Shown piece after piece: positions 28,954-33,566 of a DNA stretch of 64,000 nt; positions within the stretch are counted from its first letter, which is position 1, and every line of letters starts with the position of its first letter. The position numbers were made by a program, and so were the translations under genes. The notes under the pieces are model-generated. The model had not been told where the DNA came from, did no database searches, and was given only the letters and a program-made list of their open reading frames with translations. Location of the stretch: contig JACONG010000010.1 of the NCBI GenBank assembly GCA_014323865.1, forward strand, positions 62,001-126,000, written 5' to 3'. This DNA is from Rhodospirillales bacterium (GTDB lineage Bacteria > Pseudomonadota > Alphaproteobacteria > SP197).

Positions 28954-28979
28954 AGTTGCGATGGATAGTTGCGATGGAT
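28954..28979. repeat. 13-bp tandem duplication spanning a start codon
   Basis: AGTTGCGATGGAT occurs twice in a row (28954-28966, 28967-28979). Each copy contains an ATG; only the second is in frame with the following oxidoreductase. Confidence 0.85.
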
Positions 28980-30077
28980 GTTGTTGAATCGGTGGTCGTC
29001 GGGGCAGGGGTGATCGGTCTCGCCGTCTCACGGGCCCTGGCTCTGTCCGGGCGCGAGGTGATCGTGCTTGAGGCGGCCGGGGACTTCGGCACCGGGACAT
29101 CGTCGCGCAACAGCGAGGTGATCCATGCCGGTCTCTACTATCCAGCCGGCAGCCTCAAGGCGCGCCTCTGTGTTGCGGGCAAGTGGCGGCTCTACGACTA
29201 TTGCCGCAGCCACGGTGTCGGCTACCGCAACAGCGGCAAGCTGATCGTTGCGACCGACGAAGCCGAGCCTGGAACGCTTTGTGGCCTGAAGGCCAGGGCG
29301 GCCGGGAACGGTGTTGACGACCTCGTGTTCCTCGATGCGGCGGAGGTCGCGGCCCGCGAGCCGGCTCTGCGCGCGGCAGGAGCCTTGTGGTCGCCCTCGA
29401 CCGGAATCATCGACAGTCACGGCCTGATGTTGGCCTATCTGGGCGATGCGGAGGCGGCGGGCACCATGCTGGCGTTGCATGCGCCGGTCGAGTCGGCAGA
29501 GGTGCGCAACGATGGAATCGTGCTGCATGTTGGCGGACCGGAGCCGATGACACTTCTGGCGCGCGAGGTGGTGAACGCTGCGGGGCTCGGCGCAACCGGC
29601 CTGGGCCGTGCCATCAGGGGACTCGATGCGGCGCAGGTGCCCGAGCGCTTCATGGCCAAGGGCAGCTACTACACCCTGCCGGGCCGCTCACCGTTCTCGA
29701 CCCTGATCTATCCCGTGCCGACGAAGGCCGGCCTCGGCGTGCATGTGACGCTGGACCTCGCCGGACAGTGCCGCTTCGGCCCCGATGTCGAATGGGTCGA
29801 CGAGATCGACTACGAGGTCGACCCGGCCCGTGCCGACGTTTTTTATGATGCGGTGCGCCGCTACTGGCCCGATCTGCCGGACGGTGCCCTCCAACCTGGC
29901 TATGCGGGTATCCGGCCCAAGCTGCAGCGTCCTGGCGGTGCGGCGACCGACTTCATGATCCAGGGGCCCGCCGACCATGGCGTGCCGGGACTCGTGAACC
30001 TGTTCGGCATCGAATCGCCGGGCCTGACGGCGTCCCTCGCCATCGCCGATGTCGTGACCGAGAGGCTCGCCGCCTGA
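28974..30077 (+). CDS. NAD(P)/FAD-dependent oxidoreductase, L-2-hydroxyglutarate oxidase-like
   Basis: 367 residues from ATG 28974 ([20 protein letters not shown]); a TTG at 28956 adds six codons. The FAD-binding Rossmann motif [20 protein letters not shown] is at the N-terminus, followed by [15 protein letters not shown], which is typical of LhgO-like members of the DAO family, and the C-terminal [17 protein letters not shown]. LhgO-type enzymes oxidise 2-hydroxy acids and pass electrons to quinone; substrate here unproven. The 295 bases after it contain no recognisable gene. Confidence 0.82.
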
Positions 30078-30372
30078 GTGCCTAGGGCATCGGGCGGTCC
30101 GATGTCGCCATCCGCCGAGGTGTCGAGGTTCCGAAGATCAAGCAGACCCGCAACATCGTCTCCGGCGGCATGGGGGCGTACAGCATGAGGGGCCGTTCGC
30201 CTCCCGGACCCAATTCGGGTCGCGTGAGGTTCCATCGGAGCCAGAAGACGAAACCGGGTCACAACCGCATCCATCTCGTGCGTTCAGCTCGGCGAGGAAT
30301 GTCTCTCGCCGCGCTACCGTCTTCTTGACCGCCTCTCGAAAACCGGAACAAGGTTTCAGACGATGCCGCCGT

Positions 30373-31659
30373 CTAGAATTTTTTATTAAAGTTCAAATTA
30401 CACTCCAAAACATCATATTCATAGAATTCTATATTTGAATTATTATATGTGTAGCCACAAAAAACATGAGGCACAAAACCCTCAACATTCCAGTCATTGT
30501 TTTCCCCTGAAACAATGATACCATAGAACCTGTCCTCGCGCGGCTCTCCTGCCAGGGGGAAGTCTTCATCATAGCTCTTCAGTCCTGCGTTCAAACGAAG
30601 TCCAGTGGTTAGTCCGCCTGACCATGCCTTATCCAATCCCGTGGCAACTTCCAATCCACGATAAATGGAATGAGCTGTCTTTGGGTCGTGCTGAGACACC
30701 GTCACACCTGCATGATACGACAGGCTCGGGCTATGCTGATGTATGAGTCTGGAACTCAAGCTCGAGAACGGCCCCGAATTATGTCGTTGATAAAAATATC
30801 GTATACTCTCATGTCGTAATTGGAAAACCAGGACATCCTTTGAGGTAAGTGCGTGCTGAAGGCCTAAGTTTACCCCAAGCGCGCCGTTATCTGCATCGTC
30901 GCCCTGCCATCCATATCTTGTATAGGCTCCAATGCTGACTCTGGTTCTGTCACTCACCAGCCTTGAGTGTGTGAGACTGAGATTTGCATTCGCTCTCCTG
31001 AACTCGGAAACCCTGTAATAACGTCCAGACAGACCCCACGACAATGTGTTTCGATTTTCAGTTTCGGAAGAAAATCGATAGTATCCGGAAAGACCGGCCT
31101 GCAATCCCACGCCAGATTTGGATTGGGAATCGGGATCGATAACAAATCTTCCTATCAAGCTGTTGTAGGCAAAGTTTTCTGTGCCCCGATTCACGTTTGA
31201 TGACGGCAAAATAGAAAAACTTCCTGTTATGCCAAGCGGATTTTTTTCTCTAATATAGTAGATATATTCTTCATAAACCTGATCCAGTTCCCGAGAGTTG
31301 TCGAGCTCGATCAGTTCCAGAAATGCTCGTTCGGCGAGCGAGTATTTTTCCTCAAGAAGCAAGGTAACTGCAAGCTCTCGTCTTGCATTCATATGGTTTG
31401 GGTTGGCCACCAAAGCATCGTTGAAGAGTAAGATGGCTTCAGAGTAATCGCCATTGCTTTGCGCCACCAGACCTTCAAAAAACAAAATATCTTCTTCTTT
31501 CGGGTCTGATTTTTGCAGCTCATCATATGCTTCCTGAATTTTCCCGGATCGAATGAGTTCGGCTATAAGAAATTCATTTGGCGCAGCGATTGCCTTGCTT
31601 GCAAGTGTTAACCCAAAGATGACAATCAATACAAAAAATGACCGCAAAATTTTAATCAT
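30373..31659 (-). CDS. SLAM-like outer-membrane protein (TPR plus DUF560-type barrel), probably acquired
   Basis: 428 residues from ATG 31659. Signal peptide (MIKILRSFFVLIVIFGLTL, cleavage near AIAA), an N-terminal TPR domain (about 35-140; ILLFNDALVANPNHMNARR, LLEEKYSLAERAFLEL), then a beta-barrel beginning SFSILPSSNVNRGTENF, the motif that opens DUF560 surface lipoprotein assembly modifiers, with alternating aromatic strands to a terminal Phe. SLAM proteins move lipoproteins or haem-binding proteins to the cell surface. Base composition is near 40-45 percent GC against about 65 in neighbours, and codons are A/T-ending, so it is likely foreign. No candidate cargo lipoprotein lies beside it. 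Confidence 0.7.
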   Translation of the reverse strand: MIKILRSFFVLIVIFGLTLASKAIAAPNEFLIAELIRSGKIQEAYDELQKSDPKEEDILFFEGLVAQSNGDYSEAILLFNDALVANPNHMNARRELAVTLLLEEKYSLAERAFLELIELDNSRELDQVYEEYIYYIREKNPLGITGSFSILPSSNVNRGTENFAYNSLIGRFVIDPDSQSKSGVGLQAGLSGYYRFSSETENRNTLSWGLSGRYYRVSEFRRANANLSLTHSRLVSDRTRVSIGAYTRYGWQGDDADNGALGVNLGLQHALTSKDVLVFQLRHESIRYFYQRHNSGPFSSLSSRLIHQHSPSLSYHAGVTVSQHDPKTAHSIYRGLEVATGLDKAWSGGLTTGLRLNAGLKSYDEDFPLAGEPREDRFYGIIVSGENNDWNVEGFVPHVFCGYTYNNSNIEFYEYDVLECNLNFNKKF

Positions 31660-31690
31660 ACAAATCTCCATCGCGATATGTCTCATAACT

Positions 31691-31718
31691 CAGGTCAGGA
31701 TGCGCAGGTCAGGATGCG
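31691..31718. repeat. 14-bp tandem duplication upstream of the SLAM-like gene
   Basis: CAGGTCAGGATGCG occurs twice in tandem, 32 bases upstream of the SLAM-like start codon, near the edge where base composition returns to the host value. Confidence 0.85.
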
Positions 31719-31959
31719 GGATTGAACTTTCACGGTCTCTTTGACAGTACTGGATAATCTTCTTGCGCACAGGTCTGTCAGCATAGCAAGAAATTGCCGA
31801 CGGGTGGCGCTCCTGCGTTCTGCCTGTTCCTCTAGCATGGCAGCATCGTTGGCGTCAACCTTTGGAGCGCTGTTCTGGACGATTCCCTGTGATTCTCCAC
31901 GAGGGTCGGTGGGTTGAACACGCTGGATTCCCATGGCAGGCGCTTTCTGTCGTTGGACA

Positions 31960-32088
31960 GGGCACCGCGGCAGGGCCTCGTCGAAACGATCCGCCTTGGT
32001 GAACCAGTCCTCCCGCATCGCGGCCCAATCGGGATCGGAGGGGCGTCCGAACCGGAAGGTTCAGCACCGTGTCGATGTCGCCGTGCAT
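31960..32088 (-). pseudogene. N-terminal remnant of a DUF924-like protein
   Basis: Minus-strand from ATG 32088 reads MHGDIDTVLN; after a one-base frame change it continues FRFGRPSDPDWAAMRED and WFTKADRFDEAL, matching the opening of DUF924 proteins (VLDFWFG ... WF-K-D-FD). The rest of the protein is absent; between 31690 and 31960 I recognise nothing. It follows the coiled-coil gene by 3 bases, so it was probably its operon partner before being broken, possibly by the insertion carrying the AT-rich gene. Confidence 0.6.
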
Positions 32089-32921: not shown

Positions 32922-33566
32922 TCACATGATCAGATGGCGTCGTAGCACCAGAATGTGGTTGTTCGCGGGCATCTCGATCGCGCGTTCGAACGCCAGCCCG
33001 TGGTCGTGGCCGGTCGACGCGATGTCGTTGAGATCGCGCACACCCCAAAGCGCGTTCTGCCGGCGCAGCATGCGGTCGAAGTTCTGGTTGCTCGGTGCGC
33101 TGTGCAGGCCGTTGAACGTGAACGGGCCATAGAGCAGCAGGTGTCCGCCGGTTTCGAGCAGCTCGGCTGCACCCGCCATGAGCCCGCCGATCGTCTCCGG
33201 TTCGGAGCAATGCAACATGTTGATCGCGACCGTCAGCCCATAGGGTCCCCCGGCCTTCGACCACCAGCCGTCGGCTGTCACGTCGAGGTCGAGGGGCTCC
33301 GGAACGTTGGCAAGGCCGCTGCTCCACGCGGCTTCGCTGATGCGCATCCGCGGGTCGGGGTCACTGGGCTGCCAGACGACCTTCGGATTGGCCTCCGCGA
33401 AGAGCGCGGCATGCTGTCCCGGACCGCTGGCGATCTCGAGGACTGAAAGGCCGGGACGGAGAAACGCCTCGATATGTTCAAGGATCGTCTGTCCGTTGCG
33501 CTCCGCGGCAGGGGCGTGAAGCCGGTCGTCGGCGGAGATGCTTCTGGCGGGTGCCTCGTCAGGCAT
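32922..33566 (-). CDS. DUF938 SAM-dependent methyltransferase-like protein
   Basis: 214 residues. Begins with APAAERNGQTILEHIEAFL, then the SAM motif VLEIASGPGQHAALFA, WQPSDPDPRM, and INMLHCSEPETIGGLMAG and LLLYGPFTFNG. This is the DUF938 family, a class I methyltransferase fold without an assigned substrate in bacteria. It lies 68 bases upstream of the coiled-coil gene on the same strand. Confidence 0.88.
   Translation of the reverse strand: MPDEAPARSISADDRLHAPAAERNGQTILEHIEAFLRPGLSVLEIASGPGQHAALFAEANPKVVWQPSDPDPRMRISEAAWSSGLANVPEPLDLDVTADGWWSKAGGPYGLTVAINMLHCSEPETIGGLMAGAAELLETGGHLLLYGPFTFNGLHSAPSNQNFDRMLRRQNALWGVRDLNDIASTGHDHGLAFERAIEMPANNHILVLRRHLIM

Follow-up and report, generated by a model that had tools for sequence, protein, structure and literature searches.

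An AT-rich gene in the window, the 64-kb stretch of DNA analysed here, raises the question of where a Slam-type outer-membrane exporter without an adjacent cargo gene came from, and which proteins it might move. Type XI secretion system (T11SS) exporters move Sec-exported lipidated or soluble proteins, for which a C-terminal eight-stranded barrel is the putative targeting domain (PMC8406197, PMC12282271, PMC5449769). Most T11SS cargo has been found only beside the exporter gene, and a gap is acknowledged where exporters are orphans or their cargo is unlinked (PMC5449769, PMC12282271). The reading favoured here, with a probability of roughly two in three (0.68), is that the exporter gene (slam) came from outside the genus, took the place of most of a DUF924 gene and probably serves an expanded family of barrel proteins that is scattered through this genome and confined to it. 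The case for unlinked cargo is made here from fold and from DNA motifs in the flanks, not from adjacency. It suggests that one exporter can serve a large paralogous repertoire with a domain unrecognised by Pfam and NCBIfam.

The exporter gene and the site it occupies

The locus comprises the following features (M1 and M2 are two DNA motifs discussed below).

28956-30077, plus strand: left neighbour, FAD-dependent oxidoreductase (Pfam DAO), 64-80% identical in same-genus genomes
30078-30321, no strand: sequence between the oxidoreductase gene and M1, origin unassigned (no relative match, no cargo remnant)
30290-30313, plus strand: hairpin directly before M1 (RNA fold), in the same layout as at the candidate cargo genes
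30322-30346, plus strand: motif M1, TTCTTGACCGCCTCTCGAAAACCGG, first half of the candidate cargo 3'-flank element (genome motif counts)
30347-31689, no strand: AT-rich insert between M1 and M2 (composition and motif positions)
30376-31659, minus strand: TPR and SlipAM/DUF560 outer-membrane exporter of the T11SS/Slam type, 428 aa from the likelier start (Pfam)
31690-31718, plus strand: motif M2, CAGGTCAGGATG, second half of the candidate cargo 3'-flank element, present twice as a 14-bp tandem duplication
31719-31979, no strand: sequence between M2 and the DUF924 remnant, origin unassigned
31980-32088, minus strand: DUF924 pseudogene remnant, codons 1 to ~36 with a frameshift after ~10 (tblastn of the intact G008 protein, two reading frames)
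32922-33566, minus strand: right neighbour, DUF938, conserved, with the same neighbourhood in same-genus genomes G008 and G005

Judged by its predicted domains, the central gene encodes an outer-membrane exporter of type XI (Slam/DUF560). Read from the first ATG, its open reading frame spans 30373-31686 on the minus strand (437 aa). Translation more probably begins at 31659, a position that has a GGAG ribosome site and leads into a Sec signal peptide, MIKILRSFFVLIVIFGLTLASKAIA. The Pfam SlipAM profile (PF04575) matches residues 154-437, reaching the C-terminus, with an E-value of 7e-27 and 95 bits against a curated cut-off of 22. TPR repeats occupy residues ~67-130 (TPR_16, E 4e-10), the TPR_Slam profile scores 30.5 bits, below its own cut-off of 35.2, and the C-terminal residue is Phe. 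An earlier sequence-only reading of this DNA had described a signal peptide, TPRs and a DUF560-type barrel ending in Phe, all of which are present. Of the span that it proposed, 30373-32088, the first boundary belongs to the exporter, whereas at 32088 the DUF924 remnant has its start codon. The domain order is that of other Slam/T11SS outer-membrane proteins (PF04575), such as Neisseria Slam1 and Xenorhabdus NilB. The window protein differs in being only ~23-27% identical to its nearest sampled relatives and in lying between motifs of a scattered cargo-like family. It is encoded by the single SlipAM gene of its own 2.82-Mb genome.

The sharp fall in GC at about 30370-31900 and the A/T-ending codon use noted earlier are borne out by measurement. 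The gene has a GC content of 44%, and the 1.3-kb segment at 30351 has a GC of 0.447, while segments of that length elsewhere in the 64 kb never fall below 0.58 (sd 0.02). GC at third codon positions (GC3) is 0.44, compared with 0.80-0.83 in five neighbouring genes.

The gene stands where same-genus genomes carry DUF924. In G008, ~0.8 kb separates the oxidoreductase gene from the DUF938 gene. Much of this interval is taken up by an intact DUF924 gene, whose end lies within a few bases of the oxidoreductase gene. In G005, DUF924 is likewise intact beside the same right-hand genes, with other sequence separating it from the oxidoreductase. Both copies encode 192 aa and are 73% identical to each other, and no SlipAM gene was found in this neighbourhood of either genome. 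The window DUF924 is both frameshifted and truncated. Its remnant reads FRFGRPSDPDWAAMREDWFTKADRFD at 32057-31980, corresponding to residues 11-36 of the intact G008 protein by tblastn, and residues 1-10 sit in another frame, in keeping with the earlier observation that the gene is cut after about 35 residues. As ~156 codons have been lost and ~1.9 kb occupies their place, what happened was replacement, not clean insertion. Of the insertion of foreign DNA into an operon envisaged by the sequence-only reading, the foreign origin and the disruption of DUF924 are supported, and the operon setting stays putative. Since two relatives keep DUF924 intact, the direction of change would be a gain in the window genome.

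Neither sequence of unassigned origin (30078-30321 and 31719-31979) yielded remnants of cargo, of the 3' part of DUF924 or of a mobile element. Searches of the own genome and of the sampled relatives returned no match to them.

Origin of the exporter

The nearest sampled relatives of the exporter are encoded on plasmids of Sulfitobacter, Nitratireductor and Novosphingobium, and in other alphaproteobacteria. In a 22-protein SlipAM tree, which came from a quick search and has long branches, the window exporter groups with the Sulfitobacter and Nitratireductor plasmid Slams (SH-aLRT 95), while the SlipAMs of same-genus genomes G003, G007 and G008 form a separate clade (support 99). Its neighbours in the tree are thus plasmid Slams of Rhodobacterales and Hyphomicrobiales, not the same-genus copies. 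A motif-based scan of 84,980 GTDB genomes with the SlipAM protein, a method by which divergent relatives can be missed, did not confirm relatives. This phylogeny, of the kind suggested earlier as a check, supports acquisition from outside the genus. A counterpart at this position in all close relatives, just as low in GC, would have argued against recent transfer; none of the same-genus copies was found there.

In the three plasmid loci (Sulfitobacter, Nitratireductor and Novosphingobium), the gene immediately upstream of the exporter gene is annotated as TbpB-like cargo, whereas no adjacent cargo open reading frame was found in the flanks of the window slam. An adjoining cargo gene is a common trait of these systems, not an obligatory one. 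Among the same-genus genomes, G007 has five SlipAM matches on contigs C88, C58 and C38, some of them partial or with a stop, and the C58 copy adjoins TbpB_B_D cargo.

Flank motifs and a scattered barrel-protein family

A BLAST search of the left flank (30070-30380) against the own genome returned a single second match, on contig C4, directly after an AT-rich gene encoding a secreted protein of repeated domains. A profile of this domain, termed here the barrel domain, detected 37 stretches in 15 loci and a further two at contig ends, one where C8 starts and one where C10 ends. At least about 13 distinct barrel genes are estimated by us to be present, allowing for overlapping contig ends. Three look intact (C4 at 74.2-76.3 kb, C10 at 255 kb and C16 at 17 kb) and encode proteins of ~680-730 aa with a Sec signal and three tandem domains. 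Their signal peptides (MNKLSSVVASVLLIAGVSAWAQ and similar) were read from the sequence as having no lipobox Cys. GC3 in the barrel genes is 0.46-0.63, compared with ~0.81 in the host.

No convincing copy was found in the other nine same-genus genomes (best E 0.003). A survey of 385 genomes of the class, in which up to eight candidates per genome were scored, gave weak matches only, and searches of IMG/VR and plasmids with the family gave none. A scan of 84,980 GTDB genomes with the barrel alignment, again motif-based and able to miss divergent relatives, did not confirm any. By these sequence comparisons, the family is previously unrecognised, large, genome-private and dispersed. The best match outside the own genome is a small barrel lipoprotein (L125:1231-1860, genome G265; E 1.6e-5).

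Repeats of the family appear to break the assembly, as 12 or 13 of the assembly's 36 contig ends are located within barrel genes or immediately behind them. The contigs with such ends are C1, C2, C4, C5, C6, C8, C10, C11, C13, C15 and C18, and several pairs of these ends overlap by 660-920 identical bases.

The link between the exporter gene and this family lies in the flanking DNA. The M1 25-mer has four copies in the genome at up to three mismatches. Its 19-mer core, TTCYTGACCGCCTCYCGAA, has nine sites at up to two mismatches, compared with none for the reversed control. Eight of the nine are preceded by a hairpin and placed just downstream of a barrel gene, and the ninth, at 30322, is beside slam and also follows a hairpin. 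As the 19-mer was drawn partly from the slam copy, the match there does not count as independent evidence; the location of every other match at a barrel gene does. The M2 unit, CAGGKCAGGATG, has five sites on both strands of 471 kb of own-genome DNA, a sample enriched for barrel loci rather than the whole genome: three directly after M1 at barrel genes, and two that are the tandem-duplication units at slam. With M1 on one side and M2 on the other, slam therefore sits between the two halves of a barrel-gene 3' flank. The 14-bp tandem duplication reported earlier is real (31691-31718), but it is not merely an insertion scar, being half of that flank.

M2 at slam lies 31-59 bp upstream of the likelier start, and M1 is inverted relative to slam when compared with its orientation at the barrel genes. 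A promoter motif common to slam and the candidate cargo genes was looked for and not seen.

These observations qualify the earlier statement that the exporter came without its cargo gene. The statement holds at the locus, where the plasmid homologues have such a gene upstream, and is probably wrong for the genome, given the flank motifs that slam and the barrel family share; 'orphan' is thus true of the locus, probably not of the genome. The search of the genome for lipoproteins or small barrels with a known cargo domain that had been recommended found nothing with PF01298, and it was the flank BLAST that revealed the family instead.

A candidate exporter-cargo system and its alternatives

The barrel domain falls below every cut-off in Pfam and NCBIfam, and the TbpB_B_D, FHBP_C and slam_lipo profiles do not match the family. 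An AlphaFold model based on 22 own-genome copies predicts an eight-stranded barrel (pLDDT 89.2, pTM 0.85). In Foldseek, the C-terminal domain of NHBA accounts for five of the top ten entries, with TM scores of up to 0.66, followed lower down by haemophilin (6om5) and the HpuA barrel (5ee2). The search also returned a 25-phosphosteroid lyase, first by E-value but with a TM score of 0.35, as well as OmpX, avidins and lipocalins. The predicted fold alone is suggestive as evidence of cargo. An hhalign comparison with eleven alphaproteobacterial TbpB-like Slam-cargo barrels gave a probability of 90% and an E-value of 1.5e-6 over part of the domain. A soluble barrel is favoured because the aromatic content is low (6.8%, compared with 12.5% in the exporter's own barrel) and because the strands, as read from the alignment, alternate between polar and hydrophobic residues with aspartates on one face.

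Several known systems resemble parts of this arrangement. T11SS cargo with two to three barrels has already been predicted in Sphingomonas and Psychrobacter (PMC12282271), and these surface proteins, with repeated TbpB_B_D domains, share tandem eight-stranded barrels and a Sec signal with the present family. The barrel family differs in having no lipobox, Pro-Thr repeats or recognisable TbpB_B_D signature, and in its dispersed copies. Neisseria Slam1 serves unlinked cargo (PMC5449769); in Neisseria meningitidis it is likewise one exporter whose cargo, TbpB and LbpB, is encoded elsewhere, although its cargos are few and distinct, whereas here there is an expanded paralogous family.

By analogy with these systems, in which the C-terminal barrel is a putative targeting domain, multi-barrel cargo has been predicted and Slam1 serves unlinked cargo, it is proposed that the window exporter releases or displays the triple-barrel proteins. 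The cargo would enter the periplasm by Sec, and its signal peptide would be cleaved, leaving a non-lipidated protein. The exporter, combining a TPR domain in the periplasm with a barrel in the outer membrane, would recognise the C-terminal eight-stranded barrel and move the protein across the outer membrane, so that each cargo protein might display or release a chain of about three barrels. Export by this exporter and a role outside the cell are both inferred for the family. The low GC3 of both the exporter and the barrel genes was counted in favour of this proposal, and the difference in GC3 between them against it.

The alternative that survives best, though it is unlikely, is that a foreign SlipAM was acquired alone or lost its cargo, and that the barrel proteins are unrelated to it and leave the cell otherwise or stay periplasmic. 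An orphan slam may simply be an orphan, as ~48% of Slams have no adjacent lipoprotein (PMC5449769), and neither the locus nor the PF01298 search of the genome offered a cargo gene. Nor is the fold proof of Slam dependence, because NHBA, the best specific structural match (PDB 6cuj, 5o1r and 2lfu), was exposed on E. coli without the need of Slam1 (PMC5500766). The NHBA domain is an eight-stranded barrel too, but a single one that ends a longer lipoprotein. Several observations speak against an unrelated family: the slam locus holds the two halves of a DNA element that was otherwise encountered only at the 3' ends of barrel genes; exporter and family are both low in GC, the remainder of the genus lacks the family, and the genus's other SlipAMs belong to a different lineage; and the barrel fold matches known cargo barrels.

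Less probable still is that slam and the barrel genes were spread by a recombination or mobile element of which M1 and M2 are parts, so that the association reflects mobility rather than function. The motifs lie beyond a terminator-like hairpin and outside any gene, family copies have ~100 bp or more of downstream sequence in common, and the 14-bp unit is duplicated, all of which would suit such an element. However, inspection of the slam locus showed no integrase, transposase or clear target-site duplication, and M1 is not enriched in same-genus genomes, which have 0-3 chance-level matches each, none exact. Spread of this kind would in any case be compatible with a functional link between exporter and cargo. 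A native explanation of the low GC, in which relaxed composition affected a gene ancestral to the lineage, is largely refuted: SlipAM genes do occur in other same-genus genomes, but those copies form their separate clade and none was found at this site, and DUF924 is intact in this neighbourhood of G008 and G005.

If the exporter does serve the scattered family, a broader and more tentative extension is that a single horizontally acquired T11SS exporter serves as outlet for a triple-barrel surface repertoire that is large, genome-private and rapidly diversifying, possibly a surface-variation system in which slam and cargo were spread by the shared 3'-flank element. Pointers to diversification are the dispersed paralogues, the near-identical repeats that break contigs, a frameshift located at an 8-G tract and, ahead of one gene, a variable tandem repeat. 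The 8-G frameshift tract and the upstream 20-bp repeats could reflect either phase variation or assembly error. The tract belongs to an AT-rich multi-barrel gene between mdh and sucC on own contig C4 (L074:6884-9533), a stretch that also contains two 20-N scaffold gaps. The 20-bp unit, AAGGGGACCCCGACAATGAC, is repeated in tandem ahead of a barrel-gene start on own contig C16 (L120:9400-9960), where the signal-peptide region is also duplicated upstream of the gene.
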